Source of the DNA: Halobaculum sp. MBLA0143
GTDB taxonomy: Archaea > Halobacteriota > Halobacteria > Halobacteriales > Haloferacaceae
DNA: 64,000 nt
Direction of reading: 5' to 3'
Assembly: GCF_041361465.1 (NCBI RefSeq)
Contig: NZ_JBGKAC010000001.1
Coordinates: 1,178,001-1,242,000, forward strand
The translations under genes were made by a program, and so were the position numbers. Of the stretch, positions 43,492 through 61,663 are shown one piece after another (within the stretch, counting starts at the first letter, position 1; every line of letters starts with the position of its first letter). The notes beneath the pieces were generated by a model. It searched no databases, was not told the DNA's origin, and was given only the letters and a program-made list of their open reading frames with translations.

Positions 43492-45375
43492 ATGTCGACA
43501 TCACAGAGCCGCCGCCCGACCGTCGCGTGGGCGGCGGCCGGACTACCGTTGGTCGTGACGCTGGGTCAGACACTGATGGCGTTGTTCGGTTACACCTCGG
43601 CGTCGGCTGGCGTGGAGCCGGTCACCGGGCCGTTGTTGTCCGTCCCGGTGTTGTTCGAGGCGGCGGTCGTGTTCAAGGAGTCGTCCGGGGTCGTGATGGC
43701 GTTGTTCCTGTTGATCGCCGTCGCGTGGGCGTCACAGGGGGTGACGATGCACAGACTGGAGCACCGCGAGGCGACGTTCGGCGCCGCCACGCTCGGGAGC
43801 GTGTTGTTCTTCGTGTTGTTCTTCGGCGTGTACGCCCCGTTGTACGGCGGCGGGACGGGCGTCGGCCCGGTCCAGCTCGGACTGTTCTCGCTCGTCCCGA
43901 TCCTGGCGTCCGGTCTGATGGTGTACGCGGCGTCCGACTACCCGTGGGCCGTGACGGTGGACCGCGAGGCCAGCGAGGAGCTCGGGGAGATCGAGGCGTC
44001 GCTGGACGACGCCCAGGCGACGTTCCGGGAGGCGTTCGACCGCCGACTCGACGGGTTCGAGGAGCTGTCGACGACCGCGCCGGAGGCGGTCGACACCGTA
44101 GAGCAGCGCCGGGAGGAGTTCCAGAGTCAGGTGGACGACGCCAGACAGCTGCTCGCCGACTGCCGGTCGATCGACGACCCGGAGCGACGGCGCAGTCGGG
44201 CGGGCGACGCCCGACGGCGCGTCGACGAGCTCCGACCGACCGCGACGGTCGACCGGATCGAGTCCGGCTTCCGCGACCGGCTGACGGACGCCGTCCGGGC
44301 CGCGTTCGGCGACCGGACGGTGGAGTCGGCGTTCGGTAGCCCGTACGAGGTCGTCAACCTCCCGACGCGGTTCCGGGAGTTCGACGTGCCGGGGGTGGAG
44401 GGTGACGTGCACGTCCGCGAGGTAGACCGGGCGTTGATCGACCTGATCGAGTCCGACGCCTCCGTGGCGACGGTGGCGTCGGCCGTCGACGGCGCACACC
44501 GGGAGTTCGACCGACTGGAGCGACACGTCGCCGACCGGGAGACGCCGGTGGTCGAGACGATCCGACAGGCGGAGTCGGATCTGGAGACGGCGGAGTCGGA
44601 GGTGGAACGCGACCGGCTCCCGTTCGCCGACCGGCTGTCGGAGGTGGTCGTCGACGGTCGGACGGAGGCGACGCCCGGCACGCGCGAACTGCGGCGGGAG
44701 CTGCGGCGGGTCCGCGACCGACTCCACGACTGTGAGTTCGACACCGCGGGACGCGAGGCGGACACGGTCGCGACGTCGGCCGACCGGCTCGTCGTGTTCG
44801 TGGAGTTCGCGGGCGCCGTCTGGTCGGCGGTCGACACCCGAGCCAGCGGGAGCAACGTCCCCGAAGAGCTGGACGACGATCTCGTCTCGGTGTTGGCGAC
44901 GGCAGTGGAACGCGCAGACGAGGCCGTCGCCGTCGCTCACGAGGACGACCGGCTCTCGTTCGAGTACGCCGACGTGACGCCGGACGCGGAGTCGACCGAG
45001 GCGTCGGACGAGACGGACGAGACCGACGCGACGGACCCGACAGACGCGGACGGCGGCTCGGAGACGGACAACGTGCAACAGCCGGAGGCGGTGGTCGACG
45101 AGGTGTTGTACGTCCTCCGGGAGCTGTCGACGGCCGCAGAGCGGGGTGAGACGTTCCTCCAGTACAACTTGGACGACCTCCCGTCGTCGATGGCGACGGC
45201 GGACGTGTTGGTCAACACGCGCCGGTTCGTCGACCGACAGACGGACTTGTTCGGCCGGGTAGACCTCCAGAGCCCGGAGCCGCCGGGGTTCTTCGAGCTG
45301 ACGGCCGCCGACGACACGGACGTGGAGACGGCGTTGTCGACGGCCCGCGAACGGTTCCGCGATCGGTACGTCTGA
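43492..45375 (+). CDS. Four-helix membrane protein with long cytoplasmic helical domain
   Basis: A 627-residue protein (MSTSQSRRPTVAWAAAGLPL). Four membrane segments fill the first 150 residues: about 10-32, 45-85 (VVMALFLLIAVAWASQG), 97-115 (GSVLFFVLFFGVYAPLY) and 122-145 (QLGLFSLVPILASGLMV). The remaining 480 residues are acidic and helical, with coiled-coil-like stretches (DDAQATFREAFDRRLDGFEE; DRLERHVADRETPVVETI) and a Thr/Asp/Glu linker at about 500-525. No family recognised. It opens the tubulin-like cluster, 66 bp ahead of the first tubulin-like gene, and could anchor that protein to the membrane (inference from order). Confidence 0.8.
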   Translation: MSTSQSRRPTVAWAAAGLPLVVTLGQTLMALFGYTSASAGVEPVTGPLLSVPVLFEAAVVFKESSGVVMALFLLIAVAWASQGVTMHRLEHREATFGAATLGSVLFFVLFFGVYAPLYGGGTGVGPVQLGLFSLVPILASGLMVYAASDYPWAVTVDREASEELGEIEASLDDAQATFREAFDRRLDGFEELSTTAPEAVDTVEQRREEFQSQVDDARQLLADCRSIDDPERRRSRAGDARRRVDELRPTATVDRIESGFRDRLTDAVRAAFGDRTVESAFGSPYEVVNLPTRFREFDVPGVEGDVHVREVDRALIDLIESDASVATVASAVDGAHREFDRLERHVADRETPVVETIRQAESDLETAESEVERDRLPFADRLSEVVVDGRTEATPGTRELRRELRRVRDRLHDCEFDTAGREADTVATSADRLVVFVEFAGAVWSAVDTRASGSNVPEELDDDLVSVLATAVERADEAVAVAHEDDRLSFEYADVTPDAESTEASDETDETDATDPTDADGGSETDNVQQPEAVVDEVLYVLRELSTAAERGETFLQYNLDDLPSSMATADVLVNTRRFVDRQTDLFGRVDLQSPEPPGFFELTAADDTDVETALSTARERFRDRYV

Positions 45376-45400: not shown

Positions 45401-45410
45401 GGAAAACTAA
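45401..45410 (+). promoter_or_regulatory. Possible internal promoter before tubulin-like gene 1
   Basis: ggaaaactaa lies 32-41 bases before the ATG at 45442 in a 66-bp gap. It is the only AT-rich run there, so gene 1 may also be transcribed on its own. Confidence 0.35.
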
Positions 45411-45441
45411 GTACCGGAGCGGCGAGGTACTTCACGAACGA

Positions 45442-47043
45442 ATGCCAGACCAGTGCCAGATCTGCCTGACCGGGCCGTCCGAGTGGAACGCGGACGACCT
45501 GGAGGGACACGTCCGTGCGGCCCACGGTGACAACGAGGCGGCCGTCGCGGCGATGTACGGCGACGAGTTCGACCACCTGTTCGAGGAGAACGGCGGCGGG
45601 AGCGGCACCGGCGACTCGCCTCGACAGACGACGCGGGAGACGCCGAAGCCGACCGGCGGCAGCGGCGGCGGTGCCACGGACAGTGTCGGCAAGAAGTGGT
45701 TCATGATCGGTGTCGGCGGCGCTGGCAACAACATCCTGGACGCGCTCCTGATGCGCCGGGACACGCTCGTGGCCGCCGGCGAGGAGCGCGCCCGTATCTG
45801 GGAGGGGGGGCTGGCCGGCTACGGACTGCTGAACACGAACACGGCGGAGTTGGAGCAGACGTACTACGCTCAGGAGGAACAGGGGTACGACCGCGCACAG
45901 CTGGAGACGAACACGATCATCGGACTGGGGGCACACGACAACTCCGGGATGGGTTACCGGTGGCAGAACGGCGCCGCGGTCGCCGAGGTCGACTTCGAGG
46001 GGGAGAACAACCCGTTCCGCGACCGCTGGGACATGCGCCAGACCGACCTCCGGAGCGCACAGGCGTTGTTGCTCGTCCACAGTGTGACGAAGGGGACCGG
46101 CTGCGGGTCGACGCCGGTGTTGGCCGAGCGCATCCGCGACGAGGTGTTGTCGGACGACCGAGAGATCGACAAGGCGATCCTGAGCGCCGTGGTGATCCCG
46201 TCGGTCGGGAGTCAGCAGTCGACGCTGGGTGGACGCGGGAAGACGAACGGGGTCGTCGGGCTCGCCCGGACGGCACAGGCGGTAGACGCACTCATCCCGT
46301 TCAACAACGCCAAGCTCCGAGAGGTGAGCCAGGACATCACGCCGCGGGTCGACGGGCTCGCGCAGTACAACCCGCCGCAGTTCGTCGACCTGAACAAGCC
46401 GCTGGTGGCGTTCCTGGAGGCGTTCACGATGTCGTCGACCCCGCAGTTCGTCGACCAGGACGCCACGATGTCGATCCGCGGCAACGTGTTCGACGTGGCA
46501 GACAGCTTCCGACTGGTCCAGGACAAGTACCCCGCGAGCATGCCGAAAGACGAGCGGCCGGCGGTCGTGTTGGCACCGGTGCTGGGGCGGCTCCGGTCGG
46601 AGACGGTGTCGGAGTCGAAGCTGGAGATTCTCGCCCGGCGGACGCTGGACCAGAACCGGTTCGCCGACTTCGATCCGTCGACGGCCTGGGGGGCCAACTT
46701 CATGCTGTACGGTCCAGAAGAGAAGATGCGCGAGGCGTCGGAGTACGTCACTGACGGTCGACTCCAACGGATCCTCAACGGGCCGGACTTCCTCGACGCC
46801 GGGAACACGGCGGGCGTCGAGACGGTGGACGTGCAGCTCAACCAGCTCGTCACCCCGCAGTTGGACGACCTCTACATGTGGGGGATGCTGTGGAACCCGG
46901 AGATGCCGGCGCTGGAGTCGATGTACGAACACGCACAGCGGCTCAACCAGGAGGGCCAGACGCAACAGGCCGAGAGCGTCAGAGAGGTCTGGAGCGACGT
47001 GGAGGCGTTGTTCTCCTGTCTGGGCCGCGACAACATGCTGTGA
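45442..47043 (+). CDS. Tubulin/FtsZ-superfamily protein 1 with N-terminal zinc finger
   Basis: A 533-residue protein. Residues 5-28 (CQICLTGPSEW...HVRAAH) form a C2H2-like finger with Cys5, Cys8, His23 and His28; a Gly/Thr linker follows. The GTPase-like core from about 84 has loop 1 MIGVGGAGNN (88-97), NTNT (131-134), a Gly-rich loop GLGAHDNSGMG (161-171), a nucleotide loop VTKGTGCGSTP (215-225) in place of GGGTGTG, and IPFNNAKL (285-292), which mirrors the T6 segment. The order fits FtsZ-like proteins (possibly the Tubulin_2/FtsZl group). The T7-like loop PPQFVDLNKP has only one Asp, so hydrolysis may be altered. Not a division FtsZ. Coupled to the next gene by GTGA. Confidence 0.8.
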   Translation: MPDQCQICLTGPSEWNADDLEGHVRAAHGDNEAAVAAMYGDEFDHLFEENGGGSGTGDSPRQTTRETPKPTGGSGGGATDSVGKKWFMIGVGGAGNNILDALLMRRDTLVAAGEERARIWEGGLAGYGLLNTNTAELEQTYYAQEEQGYDRAQLETNTIIGLGAHDNSGMGYRWQNGAAVAEVDFEGENNPFRDRWDMRQTDLRSAQALLLVHSVTKGTGCGSTPVLAERIRDEVLSDDREIDKAILSAVVIPSVGSQQSTLGGRGKTNGVVGLARTAQAVDALIPFNNAKLREVSQDITPRVDGLAQYNPPQFVDLNKPLVAFLEAFTMSSTPQFVDQDATMSIRGNVFDVADSFRLVQDKYPASMPKDERPAVVLAPVLGRLRSETVSESKLEILARRTLDQNRFADFDPSTAWGANFMLYGPEEKMREASEYVTDGRLQRILNGPDFLDAGNTAGVETVDVQLNQLVTPQLDDLYMWGMLWNPEMPALESMYEHAQRLNQEGQTQQAESVREVWSDVEALFSCLGRDNML

Positions 47044-48350
47044 CCGTGACGGGAGAACACGTCAGCGAGGCCGCCGACCGGCTGGGTGTGGAGCCGGAGC
47101 CCGAGGCGGTCGCAGACGAGGTCAGAGAGTGGCACGGAGCGCTGTACCGGATCACCTCGAAGCTCGACTCCGAGGCGACCGGCATCGAGCCGGGCGACTC
47201 CGCCGCAGATCGGTTGTTCGCGCTCCAGAAGGCCGCGGCGGACGGCCGACTGTCCGTCGAGCCGGCGGGAGAAGAGGAGACGGCGGCCGACGCCGAGTCA
47301 CCCTTCGACGAGACCGTCACGGGCGGGGCGGACGCCAGGGGTGCCACGGAGACGGACGCGAGAGGAGACACGACGACGGACGCGAGAGGAGACACGACGA
47401 CGACGGACGCGAGAGGAGACACGACGACGACGGACGCGAGAGGAGACGCGACGACGGACGCGGGGGAGACGACCCCGGCGCAGCCAGACTCGGAGTCGAC
47501 CGGCGGGGGCGAAGCGGACGGTGACGAACCCGTGTCACCGGGCGCGCGAGCGGCGGCCCGGGTGGCGGACGCCCGCGAGCCGTCACAGCGGGTGATCCAG
47601 CAGCTGCTCGACACGCTCCAGGACGGCTCCGTCGCGGGTGTCGAGTTGGCGCTGGAACGGACGGCCGACGCGGTCGCCCGGTCGGCGGCCGTCGGCGCCA
47701 TCGACGACGACGACAGCGATCCGGCGGCTGCACGAGACGCGCTCGGCGACGCACGGGAGGCGCTGGCCGACGTCCCCGACCCGGTCGCGGCGCCGTTCGA
47801 CGAGCGGCTGTCGGAGCTGGCCCGTCAGCTGGAGGCGGCCGCCGACGGGAACCCGGTCGTGCCGTACGCCGTCGGGCGAGAGGCGACGTTCTACGCCGAG
47901 ACGCTCGCCGGGTCGCTGGCGTCGGTGTCCGTCGACGGCGACCGGACCGACGGGACCGCCGACGCGGCGACCGTCGGGGACGCGACGACTCCCGATAATG
48001 CGACAGCTCCAGACGACGCGACATCTCCAGAGGGCGCGACGGCTCCGGACGACGCGACAGCTCCGGACGACGGGGAGGCGGCGGAGACGGTCCAACGGGT
48101 CGCCGACCGGCGGCGCGAGATCACGGAGCGGTTCGTCAACCGCCGAGAGGACCACAGCCACGCCATCCCGTTGTTGTTCCTCTCGACGGCCGACGACCTC
48201 CGGGAGCGCGCGGGCGAGGCGATAGATCGAGGGGAGACTGCCCGGGCGACAGGAGTCGCAGAGGCCGCGCTCGCGTCGTTGGACACGGTGGAGTCACTGT
48301 ACGAGGAGAACCAGTACAGCGTCATGCTACGGCAGCTACGCGGGAGCTAG
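47040..48350 (+). CDS. Acidic helical protein with low-complexity linkers
   Basis: A 436-residue protein from GTG 47040, overlapping the end of tubulin-like gene 1. Helical blocks are at about 1-80 (EAVADEVREWHGALYRIT), 170-310 (SQRVIQQLLDTLQDGSVAG) and 345-436. They are separated by two Thr/Asp/Ala-rich linkers: about 100-165, made of TDARGDTT repeats with matching DNA repeats near 47350-47460, and about 315-345, made of ATAPDDAT-type repeats. No signal peptide or membrane segment was seen. It is probably a cytoplasmic adaptor for the tubulin-like protein (inference from translational coupling). Family unknown. Confidence 0.72.
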   Translation: MTVTGEHVSEAADRLGVEPEPEAVADEVREWHGALYRITSKLDSEATGIEPGDSAADRLFALQKAAADGRLSVEPAGEEETAADAESPFDETVTGGADARGATETDARGDTTTDARGDTTTTDARGDTTTTDARGDATTDAGETTPAQPDSESTGGGEADGDEPVSPGARAAARVADAREPSQRVIQQLLDTLQDGSVAGVELALERTADAVARSAAVGAIDDDDSDPAAARDALGDAREALADVPDPVAAPFDERLSELARQLEAAADGNPVVPYAVGREATFYAETLAGSLASVSVDGDRTDGTADAATVGDATTPDNATAPDDATSPEGATAPDDATAPDDGEAAETVQRVADRRREITERFVNRREDHSHAIPLLFLSTADDLRERAGEAIDRGETARATGVAEAALASLDTVESLYEENQYSVMLRQLRGS

Positions 48351-48466: not shown

Positions 48467-49630
48467 ATGGCGTATCTCTTTGTCGGAGCGGGGCAGGCCG
48501 GGTGTGCGCTCGTCGACTCCGTCTTCGACCACGAACGTGTGTCGACGTTAGCGACGCCGGTCGCGGTGAACTCCACGGCGAGAGACCTCCAGAACCTCTC
48601 GAACGTGGGGTCAGAGTCGTGGTACGGCATCGCACGCGGAGAGGGCCTCGTCGCGGGCGACACGGCGGGGTTCGAAGAACAGGTTCAGGGCGGCTTCGGT
48701 CGGGAGCCGCGAGAGGCAGACAGTGTGGCGAGCGACCTCGTGGGGCCGATGGCGGACGCGTTCGGCGAGCAGTTCGGCGAAGGGACGCCGTCGTTCGCCT
48801 TCGTCTTCGTCGGGTTGGGCGGCGGCACCGGCTGCGGGATCGGGCCACACGTCGTGGAGGCGATCCGAGAGTTCTCCGGGCCGAGCACGGACGTGATCGC
48901 CGTCGCGGTGTTGCCGAACACGAGCGGCGACGTGACACAGGGCGAAGACGACGCGACGGTGTCGGCGACACGACAGGCGGACAACGCGGTCTACGGACTC
49001 GACCGGCTGGAGTCGGTCGTCGACGGGGTCGTGCTCGTGGACAACCAACGGCTCGCCTTCGAGGACGCCGCCGAGGGCCGGTTCGGGGAGTTCAACGACT
49101 ACGTCGCGGCCGGGGTCGTCGACCTGATCTCCGGGGCGGTGCTCGAACGGATCGACCCCGGCGGGTACGAGTCGTTCGACCCACAGACGATCGACCTACA
49201 GGACATCGTCACGTCGCTGTCGCTGTCGGACGGTGTCGGCTACGCGGCACTCGGTCGGTCGGTCGTCCGGACGCGGTCGCTGGCGGGGTACTTCCTGCCG
49301 TTCGTCGGCAGACAGGCGGTCGACGGCGACACGCTCGCGGATCTGGCGGTGACGAAACGCTCCGTCGCGGACCTGAATCCGAGCCTGGCGGAGAAGGCGA
49401 TCGGGCAGATTCGTGCGCCAGAGCGGTACGTGACGGACAGCGACTACCGGATCGAGGCGTCGGTGATCCGGAGTCGACTCGACAGCTACTGCCCGGAGGT
49501 GAACATGGGACTGATGTTGACGGAACGCAACCTGGCGTCGTTCACGACGCTGCTGACGTTCGAACGCGAGGACATCGATCGAATCGCAGACCTCGAGACG
49601 CTGGCGGCACAGGGGAGGGGGCGAGCGTGA
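48467..49630 (+). CDS. Tubulin/FtsZ-superfamily protein 2, CetZ-like
   Basis: A 387-residue protein. It begins MAYLFVGAGQAGCALVDSVF; the GAGQAGC loop is the tubulin/CetZ loop-1 form rather than the FtsZ GGGGN form. AVNST (33-37), the signature GLGGGTGCGIGP (116-127), AVLPNTSGDVTQGE (about 147-160), VVLVDNQRL (188-196) and EFNDYVAAGVVDL (208-220) follow in superfamily order, as in CetZ proteins that control haloarchaeal cell shape. All glycine loops are intact, so GTP binding is likely. It is shorter than a CetZ1-type protein would suggest for its C-domain, and sequence distance from CetZ looks large. It is coupled to the next gene by GTGA. Confidence 0.85.
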   Translation: MAYLFVGAGQAGCALVDSVFDHERVSTLATPVAVNSTARDLQNLSNVGSESWYGIARGEGLVAGDTAGFEEQVQGGFGREPREADSVASDLVGPMADAFGEQFGEGTPSFAFVFVGLGGGTGCGIGPHVVEAIREFSGPSTDVIAVAVLPNTSGDVTQGEDDATVSATRQADNAVYGLDRLESVVDGVVLVDNQRLAFEDAAEGRFGEFNDYVAAGVVDLISGAVLERIDPGGYESFDPQTIDLQDIVTSLSLSDGVGYAALGRSVVRTRSLAGYFLPFVGRQAVDGDTLADLAVTKRSVADLNPSLAEKAIGQIRAPERYVTDSDYRIEASVIRSRLDSYCPEVNMGLMLTERNLASFTTLLTFEREDIDRIADLETLAAQGRGRA

Positions 49631-49944
49631 GTCGGGCGGTCTCGTGTCTCGTCGCCGTCGCCGTCGTCGCCGTGGCGCTGGCCGGTGTCGGCGGCGTCAC
49701 CGCGCAGGCCGACGACGACGGGACGACCGGGAACGAGACGGCCGGCAACGGGACGACGCAGGCGGCCACGGCGACCCCGTCGCTCGGAGAGCTGTCGACG
49801 GCCGTCGCCGAGCGACGGACGGCCGTCGCGGAGACGAGAGCGAACGGCGGCGCCGTCCAGCCGGCGGTCGTCGGGCTGCTCGCGGGCGTCGGCGGCGGAC
49901 TGCTCGTCGGCACCGTCGTGCGTTACTGGGGGGTGGGGCGGTGA
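49627..49944 (+). CDS. Small secreted/membrane protein
   Basis: A 105-residue protein from GTG 49627. The N-terminal signal peptide is SRAVSCLVAVAVVAVALAGV, with likely cleavage after TAQA. A Thr/Asn/Gly-rich stretch with potential N-glycosylation sites (GNETAGNGT) and a short helix (LGELSTAVAERRTAVAETRA) follow. A C-terminal membrane helix spans about 77-98 (AVVGLLAGVGGGLLVGTVVR) and ends in a few residues. It would be a tiny single-pass surface protein. The four-base overlaps with tubulin-like gene 2 and the next gene argue for co-production. Confidence 0.7.
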   Translation: MSRAVSCLVAVAVVAVALAGVGGVTAQADDDGTTGNETAGNGTTQAATATPSLGELSTAVAERRTAVAETRANGGAVQPAVVGLLAGVGGGLLVGTVVRYWGVGR

Positions 49945-50954
49945 CGCGGCTCCTCGCACTCCTGGTGTGTCTGCTCGCCGTCGTCCCCGGCACCGCCGGG
50001 GCGACGGCGGCGCCGCCGGCGGACTGTTCGGGCGTCCAGAACACGACCGCGGTCGTCACGGACGCCGCGGGCGACCGGGTCACCGGCACGGTCCGGCTGT
50101 ACCCGGGCTCGGAGTTGACGCTGACCGTCTGCAGCGACGGCGACCCAGAGGACTTCGGTCCGGTCTGGGGGCTGGCCGACAGCCCAGTGTACGAGCGGCT
50201 GGACAACACCTCCGAGAGCGTCCGGCTCCGGGTGGTCGCGGCGGGCGCCGGTGAACGTGTCTCCCTCGGCGAGGCGATAGAGCGCCGGGACGCACGTGGG
50301 CCGACGGTGGTAGTGCCGCCGGCGAACACGGTGACGTGGAACGCCACGGACGAGACGTCGGTGACACTCCGGTTCGAGACGGCCAGCCAGAGTGAGGCGT
50401 TCGCGGCCGCGTCGGACCGGCACTCGACCGCCCGGCGGGAACTGAACGGCACCCTGTCGGCGCTGCCGACGAACGCCTCGTCGGACGACGAGTCGGCTTC
50501 CAACGCCAGCCAGGTGGTGACGGCGTTGCGCGAGTACGAGCGCGCGTCGGTGGCGCTCCAGCAGACGGCGTTCGCGGCGACGGCGACGGGTGACGCCGCG
50601 GCGGCCGACACGGTGACGCGCCGGTCGAGTGAACGGCTCACGGCGGCCCGCGACCGGGTCCGCGAGCGGCTGACGGCGTACGAGACCACGTTGGTCGAGC
50701 GCCGTTCGTCCGTCGTGGGGACGAGCCGGCTCGCGTTCGGCGGCGCGCTCGCCGGCGGCGTCGTCGTCGGCGCGGCCGTCGGCGTCTGGTTCGCCGGCCG
50801 CCGTCGCGCGGAGATCGACTTCGACAAGACGTACGACAGCGGGACGACGCTGGACCCGCGTCACGTCGCAGTGCCGCTCGCGGCCGGCGGGCTGTTGTTG
50901 GTGGGCGGGCTCGCGGCTGCGGTCGTCCTCGGCGTCGCGGGGGTGATCGTCTGA
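49941..50954 (+). CDS. Exported protein with two C-terminal membrane helices
   Basis: A 337-residue protein from GTG 49941 with signal peptide TRLLALLVCLLAVVPGTAGA. The extracellular part has a beta-rich region (about 25-150; CSGVQNTTAVVTDAAGDRVT, VRLYPGSELTLTVC, with a Cys pair that may be disulphide-bonded) and several N-x-[ST] sites. A helical region follows at about 150-255. Two C-terminal membrane helices (about 258-280 and 310-335) flank a cytoplasmic loop RRRAEIDFDKTYDSGTTLDP. No family recognised. The loop faces the tubulin-like proteins if topology is as predicted. Confidence 0.72.
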   Translation: MTRLLALLVCLLAVVPGTAGATAAPPADCSGVQNTTAVVTDAAGDRVTGTVRLYPGSELTLTVCSDGDPEDFGPVWGLADSPVYERLDNTSESVRLRVVAAGAGERVSLGEAIERRDARGPTVVVPPANTVTWNATDETSVTLRFETASQSEAFAAASDRHSTARRELNGTLSALPTNASSDDESASNASQVVTALREYERASVALQQTAFAATATGDAAAADTVTRRSSERLTAARDRVRERLTAYETTLVERRSSVVGTSRLAFGGALAGGVVVGAAVGVWFAGRRRAEIDFDKTYDSGTTLDPRHVAVPLAAGGLLLVGGLAAAVVLGVAGVIV

Positions 50955-53035
50955 TGCGGCCGGCCGTTCGCAACGCGCTGCGGCTGGTCGCGGTCGTCCT
51001 GGTCGCCGGCGGTGTCGGCGCCGGCGTGTTGCTCGCGACCGGCTCCAACGTCGGCGTCGGGCTCGCGGGCGTCGGCGTCCCGTTGGTCGTGGCGGCGGCG
51101 ATCGTCGTCTACGTCCAACGGACGGTGAACCAGAACGCGACGAGCCCCGGGGAGTTCGTCCGGGACCGCGCCCGCAACACTGCGGGACAGCTGCGCGACG
51201 AGCTGACGACCTACGAGCGCCGACGCGGCCAACACCCGGAGTGGGACACGACCCAACTGGACACGCAGGTGGAGCAGTTGGTCGACGACTTCGCCGCCGC
51301 CGGCGTCCAGGTGTCGCCCGAAGACGGGACGTTCACCGTCGACGAGCCGGGCAACCCACGGGAGTTCGACACGCTGGAAGACGAGGTCGCGGAGTTCGCC
51401 CGACAGCGAGACGAGTCGTTCGTCTCGTTCGTGGAGACGGCGGTCGGGCGAGCGGCGACGGCGTTAGACCGGCTGTCGCCGGGCGTGCTCGACTCGGACG
51501 AGGTGGAGTCCGTCCCGGCGTCGGCAGTGCCGTCGGAGCCCGACGGCGCGGCCACGACGCTGTCGGAGGCCCGCGACACCGCCCGCGAGACGGTCGAGCG
51601 GGCGGCAGATCGGGTCGAAGAGACGATCCAGGAGTACGACGGCGACCCGACGACGATCCGCGACCACTTGGAGACCGCCCGGACGGCGGCGGCAGACGGG
51701 CGCGTCGAGGAGGCGGTCGGCGAGATCGAGCGGGCGACGAGCGCGGCCGAGGCGGCCGTCGAGACGGAGTTCACCGACCGCCGGCAGGCGGTCGAGGAGC
51801 TGGTGGAGACGGTGGAGTCGTCCGTCGTCGACGAGTACGTCGACGCCGACAGCGTCGCCACGGTGTCGACGGTCGGCGACGACGTGAGCGACGTGGACTC
51901 GGCGCTAGAACGGGAGGCGCTGGCGACCGCAGAGTCGCAGCTCCGGACCGCATGCCGGGAGATGGTCGAACAGCTCCAGGCCGACTTAGACGGCCACATC
52001 GAGACGATCCAACGGGCGGACATTCCGGTCGGCTTCTACACGGTGCCGCCGGCGGCGGGGACGGACTACGCCGGTCGGCTCCAGTCGACGTCGGACGTGT
52101 CGTCGTTCCGTTCGACGTGGGTGGACGCGGTCGGCGCGCTGACGGACGCCGTCGAGACGGCGTCGTCGAAGGCGGCCGTCGCAGACACCTACGGGATGGT
52201 CGCAGACCAGATGGACGAGACACTCCGGACGAGCGGACGAGTCGAGGGGTCGGACCTGCGCGTGGCGGAGCCGGAACAGTTCATGGAGCTGTACGCCGAC
52301 GCGAACCCGGAGACGGAGTACGATCCACGCGGACCGACGCTCACGGCACCGGGCGGCGGGGAGACGTACACCCTCGACGCGACGGCGCGGCTGGGTGACA
52401 ACGACGGCTCGAAGTACGAGTTCCAGATCGACGTGACCGGCGGCGACGAGCGCCGGACGGCGCGCACGCGGGACTTCGTCGCCACGCAGGAGACGTTCGA
52501 CCGGCTGCCGTACGGGGAGTACGAGGTGACGGCGACGGTCGACGACGACGGCTTCCCGACGGTCTCGGAGACGGTCGCGGTGCAGTCGGACACGGAGGTG
52601 ACGCTGTCGTTGACGCGGCAGTCCGTCGCCGACCGGGTGTGTGGCCGCGACCGGGCGACCGTCCGCGACCAGCTCCCGACGGTGACGACGGAGCTGGAAC
52701 GGCGGTTCGAACAGGAGAGTCACCTCTCGCCGGAGATGGACCTGCCCGTCACCGACGAGTATGTCCCGTGTCTCCTGGCGCTGTGGGCCGAGGGGACGAA
52801 CCACGACGCCCAGATCGACGACGGGCGCGTGCTCGTGTACGACCACGACGACCTGACGGAGAAGGTGGAGTACGCGTTGGCCCAGTCGGTCGTGGACGGC
52901 GGGGAGACGATGCGGTTCGACACGATCCGGAGCCGGTACCTCTCCGTCCCGGTCTCGGACGACCTGTTGGAGACGGTCGTCAGGGAGACCGGGTTGGACG
53001 TGGCAGTCGACGGAGCGGAGGTGCGTCCGGCGTGA
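50954..53035 (+). CDS. Membrane-anchored coiled-coil protein with beta domain
   Basis: A 693-residue protein whose ATG overlaps the upstream TGA as TGATG. Two membrane helices at the N-terminus (about 8-29 LRLVAVVLVAGGVGAGVLLA and 33-54) are followed by a long acidic helical region of about 60-440 (ARDTARETVERAADRVEETI; TARTAAADGRVEEAVGEIER). A carboxypeptidase-regulatory-like beta domain sits at about 455-555 (YTLDATARLGDNDGSKYEFQ; RLPYGEYEVTATVDDDGFPT), and a helical end domain follows. With two short N-terminal helices the bulk should be cytoplasmic. It could be a link between membrane and tubulin-like proteins (inference). Family unknown. Confidence 0.75.
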   Translation: MRPAVRNALRLVAVVLVAGGVGAGVLLATGSNVGVGLAGVGVPLVVAAAIVVYVQRTVNQNATSPGEFVRDRARNTAGQLRDELTTYERRRGQHPEWDTTQLDTQVEQLVDDFAAAGVQVSPEDGTFTVDEPGNPREFDTLEDEVAEFARQRDESFVSFVETAVGRAATALDRLSPGVLDSDEVESVPASAVPSEPDGAATTLSEARDTARETVERAADRVEETIQEYDGDPTTIRDHLETARTAAADGRVEEAVGEIERATSAAEAAVETEFTDRRQAVEELVETVESSVVDEYVDADSVATVSTVGDDVSDVDSALEREALATAESQLRTACREMVEQLQADLDGHIETIQRADIPVGFYTVPPAAGTDYAGRLQSTSDVSSFRSTWVDAVGALTDAVETASSKAAVADTYGMVADQMDETLRTSGRVEGSDLRVAEPEQFMELYADANPETEYDPRGPTLTAPGGGETYTLDATARLGDNDGSKYEFQIDVTGGDERRTARTRDFVATQETFDRLPYGEYEVTATVDDDGFPTVSETVAVQSDTEVTLSLTRQSVADRVCGRDRATVRDQLPTVTTELERRFEQESHLSPEMDLPVTDEYVPCLLALWAEGTNHDAQIDDGRVLVYDHDDLTEKVEYALAQSVVDGGETMRFDTIRSRYLSVPVSDDLLETVVRETGLDVAVDGAEVRPA

Positions 53036-54299: not shown

Positions 54300-54305
54300 C
54301 GACGG

Positions 54306-57167
54306 GTGACGGGGAACCGAACCGCCCTCGTCTGTTGGGTGACGCTGGCGGTCGCGGTCGTGGCGGCCGGCGTGGCCGGCGGGGCCGTCGGGGTCGGCGA
54401 GCCCGACGGTATCGGCGGAGCCGACACTGTCGCCGAAGCCGACGCCGCCGTGACGACTAACCACACGAACGCGACGCTGGAGGACGTCCGGTCGTCGCCG
54501 TCGAGCGGCGCGCTCGTCGTCGAACTGGCGAACGCGAACGGCTCGGTGAACGTGACAGTGGCGACGGTCGACGGTCCCGAGGACACGTACACCAGAACCG
54601 TCGAGGAGAGCGGCGACGTTCGGGTCGTGCGGGTCGCTCCCGGAGTACTCCCGACGGGAGACCTGAGTCCGGCGACAGTGTCGGTGTCGGTCGGCGGGCA
54701 GCAGATCGGCTCCGACCAACTGCCGTTGGACTACGTCGAACTCGACCCGAACACGGCACGGATCCGGCCGAACGGCACGGCGGTGTTCGGCACCAGCACG
54801 TCCGTCGGGACGGACGCCGTCACGCTGCGACTGCTCGGTGACGGCGGCGCAGTGACGACGGCGACAGCGACCCGCAGGAACGGCAGCCTAGTCGTGGGAG
54901 GGGAAGCGGTGGAACAGTACCTCCTCCCGCCCCAGCCGTTCCGGGTCACCGGCCCGGCAGCCAGCGAGACGGTGCCCGTCACCGGAGGCGGAGCGAGCGT
55001 CGACCCCGGGCAGTTGGCCGACCGTGGTAACACGACCGTCACGGCCGGCGACGGGCGGATCACGCTGTCTAGTCCGGCGCTCGTGAACGACGAGACGTAC
55101 ACCGTCACCGTCCACTCTGGCGCGCAGTACACGACCACCACGACCGCCAGCGGCGGCAGCGTCACCGTCGAGAACCCGGCGTTGTTGGAGCTGGCGTCGG
55201 TGAACGTCACGGTGGCGTACGACGGCACGGACGTCGTCTCCGTCGACGACTACCGGATCCACGAGGTGACGACGGCGACCGTCGTGGCGGCGACGGGCAA
55301 CACGACCACGCTGAACCTCACCGAGAGCGCACTGCCGTCGCAGGCGGGGCTGGCCGACGCGAGCGTGATCGGTGCCGAGCGGACGGTGGCGGTCGACGTC
55401 GACCGCACGCCCAGTGGTGACGTGACGCTAGACGGCGTGTCGCTGAACGTGAGCGGCAGCTACCGAGTGCTCCTCCGGACGGCAGACGGCGCCAGCTACC
55501 CGGTCCGAGTCGGTGCGGGCGACGCGCTCGGAGAGATCCAGACGCCGGCTGCGGCCGGCGGCACCGACGGCGGCACCGACGGCGGCGCCGGGCTCGCCGA
55601 CAGCCCGGTCTTACTCGGCGGAGCCGGGGCGGTGTTGGTGTTGGTCATAGTCGGTGCGTTCGCAGTGCTCCAGACGGACGTGCTCGGTGGACCGTCCGGT
55701 GGTGGCCGCGAATCGCGGTCGGAGACGGTCGAAGTCGAGGTACTGGATCCGGACGGGAGTGTCCACGACGGGCCGGTAGAGGTCGTCTACCGAGAGGCCG
55801 GCCCACTCGGCGGGGACGGGTCGAGCGGCCGCCAGCGGAGCCAACCCGGACGGAACGACCCGGCCGGCGGTCGGGGGCGCAAGCAGGACAAGGAGACGAT
55901 CGACGGGCGCAGGACGCTCGAGTTCTTCCCGAAGGAGTGGGAGCTGACCGTCCAAGACCCGTTGTCGATCCGGGGTGGCTCCGTCCGGTTCGACCCGGAG
56001 CGGTCGGACACCGTCACGCTCGATCTCGAGCCCCAGCGGCGGCGGCTCCGCGTCGTCGACGAGGTGGGAGACCCGATCGACGGGGTCGAGGTGGCGGTCG
56101 ACGGTGATCGCCGCCAGACGGACGCGAGCGGGGAAGCGACGTTCCAACGCCCGCCGGGCGAGCGCCGGACCAACGTCCGGACGGACCACCCGGTGTACGA
56201 GGACGCCGACCGGCGACTCCGGTGGGCGAGCGACGGGACGACGGAGCTCGCGTTGGACGTCGACAGCGGCGGACTCGCGGTGACCGCGGCCGTCGACGGC
56301 GAGCCGACGGCCGGGATCGACGTGACTGTGGAACGTGCAGACGGGCGGCCGGTGGCGGACGACCCACGGACCGGCGAGACGGACGGGGACGGGAGCGTCT
56401 CCTTCTCCGGGCTGGTCGTCGGGGAGTACACCGTCACCGCGGACGCCGGCGAGTCGTTCACCACCGACGAGCGAACCGTCTCGGTGGCGGTCGACCGGAC
56501 GGAGCCGGTGGAGCTGTCGGTGTCGTTCCGGTACGAGCTGTCGCCGGACCACGACCGACGGCTGTCGGCGTTGGCGGACGCGGCCGACGAGCTCCGGCCG
56601 TCACAGCAGCTCGACGGTGCCGTCCACCACTACTACGGGACGGTGATCGAGTCGCTGGCAGACGTGATCGGCGGGCTGCCGGACGCCGGTCACCGGTTCG
56701 TCGACGCGCCGGCGGCGCCGGCGGCGGTGACGGCGGCGTTGCTGGACACGGGTGAGGAGTTGCTGGACCTGACGCGGGTCGCGCTGAACGACAAGCGGAA
56801 CGTCGACCTGTTCACCGCCTGTGCGGAGATGCAGTCCGTCCGGACGGGCTGGGCGGACGGGTACGACGAGGCGGCGTTGTTCGAGGCGCTGACGGCGGAG
56901 CCGAACGGCCTGATCCGCGACGTGAGTCGTCGGCTAGAGGAGACGGACGAGTTCCTCCAGAGCCGTCGTGACGAGGTGACGGTCGACTCCCCGGTTCGAG
57001 AGCCGTACGCGGAGGTGGACTCGTACGCCAGGTCGGCGGCGGATCCGGTCCCGCCGTTGGCGTCTGCGGCCGCGCTGTCGTTCGCGGTCGACGGCTACCT
57101 CCGGGCGATCGAAGACGTGTTCGACGAGCCGACGCTCCGGGAACGGCTCGACAGTACGGTGTACTGA
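54306..57167 (+). CDS. Large single-pass surface protein with cytoplasmic beta and helical domains
   Basis: A 953-residue protein from GTG 54306. Signal peptide region LVCWVTLAVAVVAAGVAGGA; an extracellular beta-rich part of about 35-420 with many N-x-[ST] sites; a Gly-rich linker GGTDGGTDGGAG; and a membrane helix at about 432-453 (SPVLLGGAGAVLVLVIVGAF). A cytoplasmic part of 500 residues follows: carboxypeptidase-regulatory-like repeats (RLRVVDEVGDPIDGVEVAVD; DGRPVADDPRTGETDGDGSV) and a helical end domain. Its large cytoplasmic part could meet the tubulin-like proteins. Family unknown. Confidence 0.78.
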   Translation: MTGNRTALVCWVTLAVAVVAAGVAGGAVGVGEPDGIGGADTVAEADAAVTTNHTNATLEDVRSSPSSGALVVELANANGSVNVTVATVDGPEDTYTRTVEESGDVRVVRVAPGVLPTGDLSPATVSVSVGGQQIGSDQLPLDYVELDPNTARIRPNGTAVFGTSTSVGTDAVTLRLLGDGGAVTTATATRRNGSLVVGGEAVEQYLLPPQPFRVTGPAASETVPVTGGGASVDPGQLADRGNTTVTAGDGRITLSSPALVNDETYTVTVHSGAQYTTTTTASGGSVTVENPALLELASVNVTVAYDGTDVVSVDDYRIHEVTTATVVAATGNTTTLNLTESALPSQAGLADASVIGAERTVAVDVDRTPSGDVTLDGVSLNVSGSYRVLLRTADGASYPVRVGAGDALGEIQTPAAAGGTDGGTDGGAGLADSPVLLGGAGAVLVLVIVGAFAVLQTDVLGGPSGGGRESRSETVEVEVLDPDGSVHDGPVEVVYREAGPLGGDGSSGRQRSQPGRNDPAGGRGRKQDKETIDGRRTLEFFPKEWELTVQDPLSIRGGSVRFDPERSDTVTLDLEPQRRRLRVVDEVGDPIDGVEVAVDGDRRQTDASGEATFQRPPGERRTNVRTDHPVYEDADRRLRWASDGTTELALDVDSGGLAVTAAVDGEPTAGIDVTVERADGRPVADDPRTGETDGDGSVSFSGLVVGEYTVTADAGESFTTDERTVSVAVDRTEPVELSVSFRYELSPDHDRRLSALADAADELRPSQQLDGAVHHYYGTVIESLADVIGGLPDAGHRFVDAPAAPAAVTAALLDTGEELLDLTRVALNDKRNVDLFTACAEMQSVRTGWADGYDEAALFEALTAEPNGLIRDVSRRLEETDEFLQSRRDEVTVDSPVREPYAEVDSYARSAADPVPPLASAAALSFAVDGYLRAIEDVFDEPTLRERLDSTVY

Positions 57168-57191: not shown

Positions 57192-58271
57192 ATGCCGAGA
57201 GGACACACACGACACACGACGCTGGTGGTCGCCGTGACCGTGGCCGTCGTCGTGGCCGGCTGGGCGCCGGTCGCGGCCGGGGCGCGGCCGACCGCCGAGG
57301 GAACGGGGGGACAGATAGACACAGTGACCGCCACGGACACGCCGAACCACGCGGCGACGACCGCACCGCCGACGACGGCCAACGGCTACCTGGCTGCGTT
57401 CCGGAACCTCTCGGACGATCCGGCGTTGTCGACGTACGGCGAACTGGAGGTGTTGCGGAGCCGGGCGGTGGCGGCCGTCCAGGTCGGGTCGTTCGACGAC
57501 GCCCGGAGCCGTCGGATGCGGGGTGTGCTCGCGGTGTTGCAGAACTTCTCTGCGGCCTACGAGTCGGCGACCGCGGGCGACCGAGAGGAGAGCCTGACGC
57601 GGGCGAACGACACGGCGCGGGCGTTGGACCGGCTCCGGACTGCCGGCGGCCGAGACTACGCGGCGCTGGCGCAGTTGGCGTTAGACCGGTTCTACCGCGA
57701 CCGCGGGGACAGGCTCCGTACGGAGGCGCGGACGGCAGAGCGCACGCCGACACAGCTCCAGTTGTTCCGGCTGGCCGTCCGAGCCTACCAACGAGGCGGG
57801 GCGACCGACCGGTTCTCCTCCACGTCGGCGAACCTGGAACGGCTGTCGGCGGAGTACGAGACGGACCTGTCGTTGTTGAACCGGTCGGTGACGACGGCGG
57901 CGGCGTTCCGGTCGTCGTGTGACGACCGGTGTAGTGACCCGCAGACGGCGGTTCGGGCGTTCGGACTCGACGTGTTCGACCGGTACGTGGAGGCACGTGC
58001 GGCAGTGTCGGGCGCCCGGCAGGCGGCGTCGCTGTCGTCCGAACACCAGCTGACGGCCCGGCTGGAACGGGCCCGTGGCTTGGAGGAGTGGGGCGTCGGG
58101 ACGCTGCGGGCGCTGACGATCGCCTCGGTGGCGCTGATCGGCGGCTACACCCTCCTGTTCGCGTTGTTCGGGGCGGTCGTGATGGCCAGACTCTCCCGGT
58201 GGGGACAGGACGCGAAGGACGCGACACTGGGTGACATCCTCCCGCGGGAGCCCCTGGAGGTGGAACGGTGA
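57192..58271 (+). CDS. Single-pass surface protein with LGD-type tail
   Basis: A 359-residue protein. Signal peptide GHTRHTTLVVAVTVAVVVAG; extracellular helical domain of about 55-305 (ARALDRLRTAGGRDYAALAQ; RTPTQLQLFRLAVRAYQRGG); a Cys pair in SSCDDRCSDP; a membrane helix at about 306-330 (IASVALIGGYTLLFALFGAV); and a short cytoplasmic tail ending TLGDILPREPLEVER. The tail resembles that of the next gene's product. The helical ectodomain may pack against its partner. No family recognised. Its stop overlaps the next GTG by four bases. Confidence 0.76.
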   Translation: MPRGHTRHTTLVVAVTVAVVVAGWAPVAAGARPTAEGTGGQIDTVTATDTPNHAATTAPPTTANGYLAAFRNLSDDPALSTYGELEVLRSRAVAAVQVGSFDDARSRRMRGVLAVLQNFSAAYESATAGDREESLTRANDTARALDRLRTAGGRDYAALAQLALDRFYRDRGDRLRTEARTAERTPTQLQLFRLAVRAYQRGGATDRFSSTSANLERLSAEYETDLSLLNRSVTTAAAFRSSCDDRCSDPQTAVRAFGLDVFDRYVEARAAVSGARQAASLSSEHQLTARLERARGLEEWGVGTLRALTIASVALIGGYTLLFALFGAVVMARLSRWGQDAKDATLGDILPREPLEVER

Positions 58272-61200
58272 CCCGTCGACTTCCGGTCGTTCTGGCGGTG
58301 GCGACGTTGGTCGTCTGTGCGGCCGTCGCCGGGCCCGCGAGCGCTGCCGGGACGGACGTCCAGTTGCAGGCGGCGACCGACGAGGACGCCACCGCGAGTC
58401 TCGGAGTTACGTTCACGACGAGCGGCAACGGCACCGTCTCCGTGCCGAGCCAACTGAACGACGGCCCGGCCCAGTTCGTCTTCCAGGAGTGGGAACGCGT
58501 CGACGGGCAGGACGGCGGCAGCAGTAGCGAGTGGGAGGCAGAACCCGGCGTCGAGTACCGCGTCGAGTACGACGTGATCGTCGACGGGGACGCGGAGGAG
58601 GGGGTCTACGGCGAGACGCTCGACGTTCGCCGCGAGGGGAGCGTGGTGGACGACGAGCAGTTGACCGTGGACGTGACCGTGCAGGAGCCGTCGTTCGCCG
58701 ATCCCGGTTTCGTCTCCGACACGGTGGCGGTCGACGCCACCAGACAGGAGCCACAGGCGGTGAGCGTCGAGGTGCCGATCGAGAACCGCGGCTCGGGCGT
58801 GATGCTCGTCGACTCCGTGGGTGCCCGCGACCTCCCGGCGGGATTCTCCGTCTCCGGCGGGAGCGTCGACGCACAGAAGCTGGTCGCCGGCGCGGAGACG
58901 ACCGGGGAGATCGATCTCACGGTCGCGTCCGGCGTGGAGCCGGGGGAGTACGAGATCACGGCGGTCGTCGAGGACAACCTGGGTAACACGCAGATGTTCC
59001 CGGTGACGGTGACTGTCGAAGAGCTACTCCCGGAGTTCGGGGAGGTGACCGGCACCGGGCTGTCGGTCAACGTCGACCGGGTCGGCGACGGGGAGGCGAC
59101 GGCCAACGGGATCGTCAGAGTGCAGAACGTCGGTCCCGGGACGATGCGATTGGAGGCGTTCCGGATCGACGACACGCCACAGGGGATCACCGCCGAGGCC
59201 GACACGGTCGACGATCCGATCGACCCGCGGTCGAACGCTCAGGTCCCCTACACCATCTCCGTCTCCCGCGACATCCGGTCGGGGACGTACAGGCTCGACG
59301 GCTTCGTCGAAGGAGTGGCCGCCGGTAGCCGCAACTTCGAGGCCACGGTGGACGTCGACGTGTTGTTCCCGTCGCTCGGGAACGTGCCGGAGCAGTCCGG
59401 CACCGTCCAGTTCGACCGCGCGGCCCAGGAGTCGGCGACGGTGTCGTTCGACACGCCGGTGCCGAACACCGGTGCCGGCAACATGCGTCTGTCGGCGGTG
59501 GGGTTCTCGAACGTTCCCGCCGGAATGGAGGTCGTCGACGCGAGCGTCGGTGGGACCGTCGTCGAGCCGGACAGACAGGGGACGGCCGAGTTCACCGTCC
59601 GGGTAGACGAGAGCGTCGAGAAAGGGACCTACCAGTTCCAGGCGACCGTCGAGGAGAGCCTGGGCAACACCGAGTCGTTCCCGGTGACGGTGTCCGTGGA
59701 GAAGCCGCCGATCCTCGACGTCGGCGGCGAGACGGTGTCACTGGGTGACGTGCTCGTCGGCCAACGGTCGGAGACGACGCTGTCGCTCGCCGAAGTCGGC
59801 GACGCGACCGGGATCGACGGGGTCCAAGCGACCGTCCAGTCGTCCCCGGGCAACGGGTCACTGTCGCTCGACGCCGTCCGGAACACGCAGTTGCCGGCCG
59901 GCGGGGAGACGGACCGAACCGTCCCGGTGACGGTGGCAGACGGGGCGCCACAACACGAGACCCTCCGGTGGACCGTGACCACACAGCCGAACGACGAACG
60001 GTCTCGGAGCCGCCAGGTGACACTCACCGCACGCGTGATCTACCCGCCGGAGCTGACGAACGTCTCCGCGACCCCAGAGTCGTTCGGCTTCGACCGGGCG
60101 CGGCCCACCTCGGACTACGAGCAGACGTCGACGCTGACACTCGGCAACGCGGGCGACCTGCCGATGACCGTGACGAGCGTGTCCGCGAGCGTCGACGGGC
60201 CGGCGTCGCTGTCGGCGACGGCCGTCGACGTGCCGGAGACGGTCGAGGGGCTGACTACGGAGGAGGTCGACGTCGCTCTGACGGCCGCCCCGTCGACGCC
60301 GGAGGGTGAGTACACGTTCACCGTCCAGGTGGAGACGGCCGACGCCGGCAGCCGGACGCTCACCCGGACGGTGACGGTCCGTCACGAGACGGAACTGTCG
60401 GTGGAGACGGGGTCCGTCACGTTCGGCGAGCTGACGATCACGAGCGAGCGGACCCGCGCCGTCGACGTGGCCGAGGAGCTGGGCTACCAGGACCTGGAGA
60501 ACTTCACCGTGACGCGCGTCGACGGTCCAGAGCAGTTCCTGGCGGTGACGAGCAGACCGGGGTCGGTGTTGCCTGCCGGTGAGTCCGACCAGATCGTGTT
60601 CGCGCTCCGATTCGGGACGAGCGCCCGCGTGTACGAGGACTACGAGTGGACCTACCGGATCGACGGCGAGCGGGCCGACCCCCGAACGGTGACGGTGACG
60701 GCGCGCCCGAGCCCGTACTCGTTCGACAGTCTGCGGCAGAACCTCACTGCGGTCGCGGACGGCGGCGAGTGGCGCGAGCCGTTGGCCGGCGGTGTCGTCT
60801 CGACGCTGGACCGGCTGGAACGACAGCTCCGCGAGGAGGAGTCCGTCGGCCGCGACACGCTCCCGACGGCACTGGCGATGGGGCGGGCGGCGTTGCTGTA
60901 CGCCGACGCCGTCGACGGCGCACAGACGGCCCAAGCGGACGGCAACTACAGTCTCGCACAGCGGCGGGTGGTCCGGGCGGCCGTCGCCCGTGACCAGCTC
61001 GTCCAGTTCGCCGGCAGTCTCCCCGGCCGACTCCGGGAGACGGCGAGCCCGACCGTCGACGTGGCCAACCGGACGCTGTCGGACGTCGTCGCCAACCAAC
61101 GGTCACACTACCGTGGCCTGGTCGGCGAGGACGCCAACTTCGACGAGCGCGCCCGGGCCAGACGGGCGCTGGCGCAGTTGGCCGCCATCGAGGGCGACCG

Positions 61201-61663
61201 GGCGGCCGAGCGTCGCAACCGACGGGCGACCCGCAACGCGACGGAGTCGTACCTCCAACGGGTGTCTGCGGCCTCACAGCACCGCGCGACCGCAGACGCC
61301 GCGTGGCGCGGGCTCACCGACAACGCGACCGTCGTCGTCGCCGGGCAGCCGCTCGTGTTGAACCCCGCGCGGTTCGACGCGACGACGGCGCGGCTGGACG
61401 AGGTCGACACGGCGTACGCGCAGGCCGTCGACGACTACGGCGCTGCCGGTGCGACCGCCGAGGCCGACACGGTCGCCGACCGACGGTCGACCGTCGCCGG
61501 CCAGGCGACTATCGTCCGGTACGGCCTCTACGGCGCCCTCGGCGCGTACGCGCTCGTGTTCCTGGGGCTCGTCTGGTACGTCGCGCGACGCGCGCTCCAG
61601 TACTACAGCGAGTCGAACGAGGCGGCGCTGGGGGACTTCCTCCTGGATCAGCCGGTGTCGTGA
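58268..61663 (+). CDS. Large Ig-like repeat surface protein with LGD-type tail
   Basis: An 1131-residue protein from GTG 58268. Signal peptide TRRLPVVLAVATLVVCAAVA; then about seven beta-sandwich repeats through about residue 815 (NEW3/CARDB-like phrases such as NLGNTQMFPVTVTVEE, SLGNTESFPVTVSVEKP and FGELTITSERTRAVDV). A helical stalk lies at about 820-1075 (LPTALAMGRAALLYADAVDG), a membrane helix at about 1080-1102 (YGLYGALGAYALVFLGLVWY), and a tail ending EAALGDFLLDQPVS. It is a single-pass extracellular protein with many N-x-[ST] sites. Last gene of the cluster. It could form the surface arm of the system. Confidence 0.8.
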   Translation: MTRRLPVVLAVATLVVCAAVAGPASAAGTDVQLQAATDEDATASLGVTFTTSGNGTVSVPSQLNDGPAQFVFQEWERVDGQDGGSSSEWEAEPGVEYRVEYDVIVDGDAEEGVYGETLDVRREGSVVDDEQLTVDVTVQEPSFADPGFVSDTVAVDATRQEPQAVSVEVPIENRGSGVMLVDSVGARDLPAGFSVSGGSVDAQKLVAGAETTGEIDLTVASGVEPGEYEITAVVEDNLGNTQMFPVTVTVEELLPEFGEVTGTGLSVNVDRVGDGEATANGIVRVQNVGPGTMRLEAFRIDDTPQGITAEADTVDDPIDPRSNAQVPYTISVSRDIRSGTYRLDGFVEGVAAGSRNFEATVDVDVLFPSLGNVPEQSGTVQFDRAAQESATVSFDTPVPNTGAGNMRLSAVGFSNVPAGMEVVDASVGGTVVEPDRQGTAEFTVRVDESVEKGTYQFQATVEESLGNTESFPVTVSVEKPPILDVGGETVSLGDVLVGQRSETTLSLAEVGDATGIDGVQATVQSSPGNGSLSLDAVRNTQLPAGGETDRTVPVTVADGAPQHETLRWTVTTQPNDERSRSRQVTLTARVIYPPELTNVSATPESFGFDRARPTSDYEQTSTLTLGNAGDLPMTVTSVSASVDGPASLSATAVDVPETVEGLTTEEVDVALTAAPSTPEGEYTFTVQVETADAGSRTLTRTVTVRHETELSVETGSVTFGELTITSERTRAVDVAEELGYQDLENFTVTRVDGPEQFLAVTSRPGSVLPAGESDQIVFALRFGTSARVYEDYEWTYRIDGERADPRTVTVTARPSPYSFDSLRQNLTAVADGGEWREPLAGGVVSTLDRLERQLREEESVGRDTLPTALAMGRAALLYADAVDGAQTAQADGNYSLAQRRVVRAAVARDQLVQFAGSLPGRLRETASPTVDVANRTLSDVVANQRSHYRGLVGEDANFDERARARRALAQLAAIEGDRAAERRNRRATRNATESYLQRVSAASQHRATADAAWRGLTDNATVVVAGQPLVLNPARFDATTARLDEVDTAYAQAVDDYGAAGATAEADTVADRRSTVAGQATIVRYGLYGALGAYALVFLGLVWYVARRALQYYSESNEAALGDFLLDQPVS

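Follow-up and report, generated by a model that had tools for sequence, protein, structure and literature searches.

The reading frame at positions 45442-47043 on the + strand of the Halobaculum sp. MBLA0143 contig analysed here (a stretch of 64,000 nucleotides, hereafter the window) raises the question of what a tubulin with a zinc finger at its N-terminus is, and whether it works alone. Its 533-residue product, which we call tubulin 1, has PF00091 (Tubulin) as its sole Pfam match, scoring 44.7 bits (cut-off 33) over residues 88-296, and the same family is matched by 31/31 of its homologues at E<=1. The score against the FtsZ equivalog TIGR00065 is 28.3 bits, below the cut-off of 295.2, and PF13809 (FtsZl1/Tubulin_2) gives no match at E 0.1, being found weakly in 5/31 homologues (best E 0.001). 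Searched against solved structures, the tubulin 1 profile matches BtubA best (2.7e-6). An AF2 model built from 23 sequences reached a pLDDT of 76.3 and a pTM of 0.76, compared with scores of 54-64 for its four alternatives, and it superimposes on CetZ1 with Z 34.7 and an rmsd of 2.5 over 323 aligned residues; further matches of residues 80-533, for which Foldseek was also run, are CetZ2 (Z 34.5), BtubB (31.9) and Odin tubulin (31.6). To judge from this model, tubulin 1 is a real tubulin-fold protein with a complete two-domain fold in residues 84-503.

The finger (residues 5-28; 45454..45525, + strand) has the pattern C-x2-C-x14-H-x4-H. Its ligands C5, C8, H23 and H28 are identical in 31/31 rows of one alignment (A1) and are kept in 23/23 rows of another built from named GTDB contigs (A4); the two alignments overlap in organisms, and locus L042 was left out of A1 because it and L044 are one place. 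The spacing in A1 is x14-x4 in 27/31 rows, x11-x4 in 2/31, x9-x4 in 1/31 and x12-x4 in 1/31 (as read by alignment; three Haloarchaeobius rows are x14-x4), which on the sequences is a range that a finger tolerates. A chance finger is ruled out: over residues 1-84 of the 31 rows, Met1 and the four ligands are the sole invariant positions. Homologues that had seemed to be finger-less (L032, L034-L036, L037 and L038), with alignments that began at residue 48-80, carry the finger in every full ORF. Thus the tubulin-like core and the Cys-Cys-His-His finger described in the first-pass annotation both stand, and no homologue without the finger was met among the 31.

Pfam finger models each match 1/31 rows, below cut-off (zf-C2H2 at E 0.31, zf-C2H2_4 at E 0.16). 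Classical C2H2 fingers share the arrangement L-x2-H-x4-H seen here, and the conserved ligand pattern of this type makes the finger putatively zinc-binding. It is acidic, with a mean net charge of -4.3 and a range of -8 to 0 over 31 rows (3/31 measured on a mis-parsed stretch), which mildly favours protein contact over DNA contact. The linker that joins it to the core has a pLDDT of 26-27 at residues 51-80 of the AF2 model and is hypervariable, with 57-156 residues between the last His and the GxGGAG motif; both properties are consistent with a flexible leash for the finger.

The T4 phosphate loop, placed by the alignments and the AF2 model, occupies residues 215-222 (V-T-K-G-T-G-C-G; 46084..46107, +). 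The segment HSVTKGTGCG is found in 29/31 homologues, the two variants reading HSIENGTGTG and HSIAKGTGTG. When aligned by hhalign with the genome's own FtsZ/CetZ set, TKGTGCG falls on GGGTGSG, T-K taking the place of the first two Gly; the exact GGGTG[ST]G loop is absent from tubulin 1, and the loop position is retained. The model shows a strand (208-214), the TKGTGCG loop and a helix (218-235) in the order S4-T4-H4, i.e. the altered loop is predicted to lie at the nucleotide site and not away from it. The departure from GGGTGTG that the first-pass annotation had noticed is therefore genuine and conserved, with its register corrected here from KGTGCGS to TKGTGCG. The same annotation had reported a single Asp in a T7-like loop, which is incorrect, and had taken the protein to hydrolyse nucleotide poorly. 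T7 and the start of H8 (residues 349-356; 46486..46509, +), located by alignment with the CetZ T7, read VFDVADSF, and both D351 and D354 are invariant in 31/31; the segment aligns with VVDSSEII of CetZ (hhalign) and with VIDVEDYV of tubulin 3. Because the D351-x-x-D354 pair is invariant, and the same D-x-x-D is present in both sister tubulins described below, poor hydrolysis is not supported. The T4 Lys is, from the alignments, a real oddity, and with T-K in place of G-G the usual turnover of nucleotide could be lost. Two Asn, N289 and N318, are likewise invariant in the 31 rows, at positions that we take to be those of the T6 and H7 Asn that contact guanine in tubulins. The predicted GTP site of tubulin 1 thus combines a changed phosphate loop with the full acidic pair of T7.

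Beyond what the first-pass annotation described, tubulin 1 has two sister tubulins and an operon around it. Tubulin 2 (387 aa; 48467-49630, +; PF00091 at 47.4 bits) has the loop GGGTGCG and T7 residues D243/D246, and tubulin 3 (401 aa; 53094-54299, +; PF00091 at 39.6 bits in the genome scan) has GGGTGNG and D231/D234; these motifs, the acidic pairs included, are invariant in 24 rows for tubulin 2 and 27 rows for tubulin 3. The nearest relatives of tubulin 2 among solved structures are CetZ (3zid) and RepX/TubZ (4ei7). PF00091 has nine matches in the 3.58-Mb genome, two FtsZ1/FtsZ2-like, four CetZ-like and the three in this window, the FtsZ and CetZ labels of the genome's own proteins (L001-L006) having been assigned in this analysis. 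A 43-row tree places each of the three tubulins in its own clade with 100/100 support, on stems of 2.35, 1.9 and 2.83 changes/site; long branches are flagged in this tree, and the order of the three clades relative to FtsZ and CetZ is unsettled. Within all three clades the same pairs recur, most clearly the window sequence with Halobaculum, Halobacterium with Halopenitus, and Halomicroarcula with Haloquadratum, which is what joint inheritance of the set would produce. In public records, which include WP_049892685 (tub1), WP_231851042 (tub2) and WP_049892678 (tub3), two of these tubulins are labelled 'cell division protein FtsZ' and one 'hypothetical protein'. By the assignment made here the genome already contains a pair of FtsZ proteins, so that the FtsZ label is probably misleading.

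The three tubulin genes belong to a run of 11 genes on the + strand (43492-61663), several of which overlap by 1-4 bases. With TM segments called by plain hydropathy, gene A (43492..45375, +) encodes a 627-aa membrane protein of ~4-5 TM segments followed by ~480 aa predicted to be helical and cytosolic; it is present in all of the 27/33 loci that have the whole operon, and in both variant loci. Between tubulins 1 and 2 lies gene C (47040..48350, +), predicted from hydropathy and locus comparison to be a soluble acidic protein. In a Natrinema homologue from this slot (L041:16996-18816) a bacterial PH domain occurs together with a zinc ribbon, and the slot may be that of a membrane or protein adaptor. 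Gene E (49627..49944, +) is small, with signal/TM segments by hydropathy, and was found elsewhere in L073 alone, being too short or diverged. Gene F (49941..50954, +) has a signal peptide, a presumed outside domain and a C-terminal TM segment, also by hydropathy. The AF2 model of the gene G product (50954..53035, +; pLDDT 85.9, pTM 0.49) has two N-terminal TM segments, a long helical region, an Ig/transthyretin-like domain (469-556) and a C-terminal helix with a mixed domain. The Ig-like domain gives a structural match of Z 10.0 over 77 residues. A tubulin-regulator fold was looked for in this protein, and its structural matches are mainly to the Ig-like domain; the helical part matches only lyase and crystallin helix bundles (Z 7.5-9.3) and is not interpretable, and no EzrA-like fold is among the structural matches listed for it, which excludes nothing. 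Downstream of tubulin 3, gene I (54306..57167, +; hydropathy and Pfam) has a signal peptide, an outer part, a TM segment at 435-453, CarboxypepD_reg-like repeats and a helical end, gene J (57192..58271, +; hydropathy) a signal peptide, an outer part and a C-terminal TM segment, and gene K (58268..61663, +) a signal peptide, Ig-like repeats (Big_13 at 35.5 bits, cut-off 27) and a C-terminal TM segment.

Genes A, tub1, C, tub2, G, tub3, J and K stand in the same order in 27/33 loci, counting L042 and L044, which are one plasmid, and gene I is present in 26 of those 27. The remaining loci run off their contigs (L065, L072), are variants (L068, L069) or gave no match (L070, L071). Another 22 loci, fetched by a second route, comprise 18 with all three tubulins, 3 that end early, and one that does not have all three (L090), a MAG in which A and tub1 are followed by genes of different codon bias. 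Upstream of the operon in the window (39500-43204) are genes for what appears, with the family judged by eye, to be a branched-chain amino-acid-type ABC transporter; none of these stands beside the operon in three annotated plasmid loci.

Convergent with gene K is a second conserved operon of 5 genes, with a 904-aa protein, an AAA ATPase of 524 aa and three proteins of no known family as its products. The gene adjacent to K, for the 904-aa protein (CARDB by Pfam), lies at 61742..64000 on the - strand and continues past the window; its H. salinarum homologue has a beta-propeller (PQQ_2). The ATPase, with a single Cdc48-like AAA domain, is encoded just beyond the right edge (L105:2857-4428 on the - strand, equivalent to window ~64456-66027). 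In gene order, the five proteins are 31, 59, 30, 34 and 43% identical between this genome and H. salinarum, and the ATPase is ~48-64% identical across carriers. It scores 102 bits against the CDC48 model (cut-off 802.65) and 98 bits against that of CdvC (cut-off 650), both below cut-off, and 161 bits against p97 by phmmer; by sequence it is nearest to p97/CDC48, and its Walker A and B motifs are, by our reading, intact. The AAA gene is convergent to the tubulin operon in 21/24 downstream stretches, and in the three exceptions, all from one genus (G222, G076, G153), it is located elsewhere in the genome.

Co-occurrence is evident from one draw of 293 haloarchaeal genomes of the order. Tubulin 1 is found at E<=1e-3 in 31/293, i.e. 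27 standard, 2 divergent (G202, G006) and 2 marginal (G002, G074), the marginal matches not being counted as family members. At E<=1e-60 the AAA protein is found in 28/293 genomes, which are all 27 with standard tub1 and one incomplete genome with a partial AAA gene at a contig end (G016), and tubulin 3 in 29/293, which are the same 27 plus G132 and G138; the 266 genomes without standard tub1 thus hold tubulin 3 in two cases and a partial AAA gene in one. The p value of the AAA co-occurrence, 2.6e-37, ignores relatedness and linkage. Together, these results show that the three tubulins, gene A, the Ig-like and other TM proteins and the Cdc48-type AAA protein are inherited together. The hosts include Halobacterium salinarum R1, a laboratory strain with a full copy of the set on its plasmid pHS2, Halobaculum, Natrinema, Halorubrum, Halorussus, Haloarchaeobius, Natronomonas, Halovenus and Haloquadratum walsbyi. 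Plasmid copies appear in 5 PLSDB records, and many loci lie on contigs of 2.9-4.5 Mb, which are chromosomes. On the Halobaculum halobium plasmid NZ_CP126159.1 two places match tub1; in genome G389, contig C2, which is the same place, the second match is in two pieces (21416-22243 and 22231-23031), and this copy is apparently damaged. Tub1 was found at E 1e-20 in 6/246 genomes of the phylum, all from the same order. Among 391 genomes of the class, 193 match at 1e-3, of which 40 are full-length members (>500 bits) and the others short matches to the GTPase core only. A viral origin was considered and set aside, as no relative of tub1 was present in IMG/VR (peptide scan) or in 50,697 phage records.

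Given this joint inheritance, the reading that we favour, with modest confidence, is that the three proteins are mutually divergent GTPases of the tubulin superfamily and parts of a membrane-associated machine of haloarchaea, whose genes make up the 11-gene and the convergent 5-gene operons and which the AAA protein disassembles. With GTP, the tubulins would polymerise at the inner membrane face, either jointly or as homopolymers that interact, and each subunit would rely on the D-x-x-D of its neighbour to complete hydrolysis. The finger of tubulin 1 would dock the polymer to a partner from the same set, most likely the product of gene A or C, the polymer would act on the cell surface layer through the TM proteins, and the AAA protein would take it apart. 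We infer GTP-dependent assembly, docking by the finger, a force or scaffold transmitted to the outside domains and AAA disassembly; the patchy distribution and the plasmid copies would also fit another sort of accessory function. Candidate cell functions of such a machine are envelope shape, surface structure and contact. A bolder version, which we regard as tentative and rather doubtful, is a new prokaryotic cytoskeletal machine in which three non-interchangeable tubulins form a mixed, GTP-driven submembrane polymer, with the finger as docking hub, Ig-domain TM proteins as the coupling, a Cdc48/Vps4-like AAA protein for disassembly, and FtsZl1 modules as exchangeable parts.

The partial sets bear on these last points. 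Two variant loci (L068, L069) have tub1 without tub2 and tub3, and two genomes (G132, G138) have tub2, G, tub3, I, J, K and the beta-propeller gene with no A, tub1, C or AAA gene nearby, which indicates that the three tubulins are not obligate partners; G202 has gene A, the zinc-finger tub1 and a C-like gene, with no tub2 or tub3. An FtsZl1-type gene (PF13809 over cut-off, in a frame of 1147-1174 aa) is present within ~20 kb in G132, G138 and G202, and not in the fourth partial genome, G006. PF13809 is above cut-off in 9/31 genomes scanned, and frames of >1100 aa above it occur only in those three. This pattern, noticed post hoc in three genomes, suggests that tubulin modules are exchangeable, with FtsZl1 standing in; because the idea came from the data themselves, its p value of 0.0009 is a guide only. 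Two of the FtsZl1-type (Tubulin_2) genes beside partial sets, L068:5948-9379 (+) and L142:217-3687 (+), are followed by a TM protein of ~460-490 aa, and the remaining one (G138, near 352,655) has homologues of these TM proteins next to it. Near the divergent zinc-finger tubulin of G006 is a 456-aa, low-GC3 ORF (L069:8889-10256, +) with a GLGGGG-like loop at its start and no Pfam match, which might be a further tubulin-like protein.

Three other explanations of the locus were weighed. One is DNA segregation of the TubZ type, in which the finger would bind centromere-like DNA and the tubulins would move plasmids or replicons. The set is carried on the 5 PLSDB plasmids, pHS2 of H. salinarum included, fingers are able to bind DNA, and tubulin 2 is nearest to CetZ (3zid) and RepX/TubZ (4ei7); however, many loci are chromosomal, most products of the operon are TM proteins or presumed to lie outside, Pfam-type family searches of the neighbours recognised no helix-turn-helix TubR-like gene, and the finger is acidic, so that we consider this explanation unlikely. 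Slightly less probable still is the original view of the first-pass annotation, i.e. a filament protein, held by its finger and acting alone, that binds nucleotide with poor hydrolysis, for although the T-K-G-T-G-C-G change is real and conserved, T7 has two invariant acidic residues and the same operon holds two sister tubulins with GGGTG loops. Equally improbable is a mobile conflict or defence island with the tubulins and the AAA protein as a sensor/effector complex, which would fit the patchy distribution (27+2 of 293 genomes), the plasmid location and the generic matches of the AAA protein to the IetA and TRIP13 models, whereas none of the 9 other proteins run through PADLOC gave a match, no domain of a nuclease or toxin was recognised above a cut-off, and we know of no defence set that resembles 16 genes with large presumed ectodomains.

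The membrane-associated tubulin machine that we favour can be compared with several known systems. From a phylogeny, Santana-Molina et al. 2023 (PMC9871819) report a 'Halo.Tub' group with 'quasi-tandem' copies and coiled-coil neighbours. As far as the available text of that paper allows a match, made by description and not by accessions, it is probably the same cluster as the three-tubulin operon, and the novelty of our finding is lower for that reason; the word 'zinc' occurs 0 times in its main text, and the available portions do not describe the finger, the module logic or the AAA partner. CetZ (4b46, 4b45) is the closest fold to tubulin 1 (Z 34.7 and 34.5), is likewise archaeal and has an acidic T7 pair, which is D-x-x-E in the CetZ-like proteins of this genome; in contrast to tubulin 1, it has no finger, its identity in the fold alignment is <=20%, and in the 43-row tree, in which long branches are flagged, tubulin 1 forms a clade of its own (100/100). 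BtubA/B and the Asgard tubulins give the best tub1 profile matches among solved structures and also form multi-tubulin systems, but they lack the finger, and the three haloarchaeal tubulins are far apart. BtubA/B and the Asgard tubulins are heterodimers of closer relatives. The partner AAA protein matches CDC48, CdvC and p97, and it differs from CDC48/p97 and CdvC/Vps4 in having a single AAA domain and an N-terminal part of its own, far under the curated cut-offs. FtsZl1 is defined in the available sections of Makarova and Koonin 2010 (PMC2875224), where a system for membrane remodelling is predicted. FtsZl1/Tubulin_2 is also a divergent tubulin family in operons with membrane genes, some of them haloarchaeal, and in the genomes examined here it adjoins partial versions of the three-tubulin system, but its proteins have >1000 aa with a coiled coil and tubulin 1 has no PF13809 match at E 0.1. 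The accessible text of Brown and Duggin 2023 (PMC9856176) mentions non-canonical archaeal tubulin-superfamily proteins, with no description of this set there, and H. salinarum cetZ5 (VNG6260G, plasmid-type numbering) is growth-regulated according to the part of PMC7439475 that treats it. Among the papers listed by a search of an open-licence library, none is by its title about a finger-tubulin fusion.

Among prokaryotic tubulins, FtsZ serves division, CetZ shape and TubZ the movement of plasmids. The conserved gene set points to an unstudied, putative cytoskeletal machine. A set of this fixed composition, in which three deep tubulin lineages, one of them tagged by a finger, go with membrane proteins and an AAA protein of their own, would be a further use of tubulin. 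In the bolder version, the AAA partner would be an archaeal counterpart of tubulin-severing logic. The set would also bear on the origin of mixed tubulin polymers and of AAA-driven tubulin disassembly outside eukaryotes.
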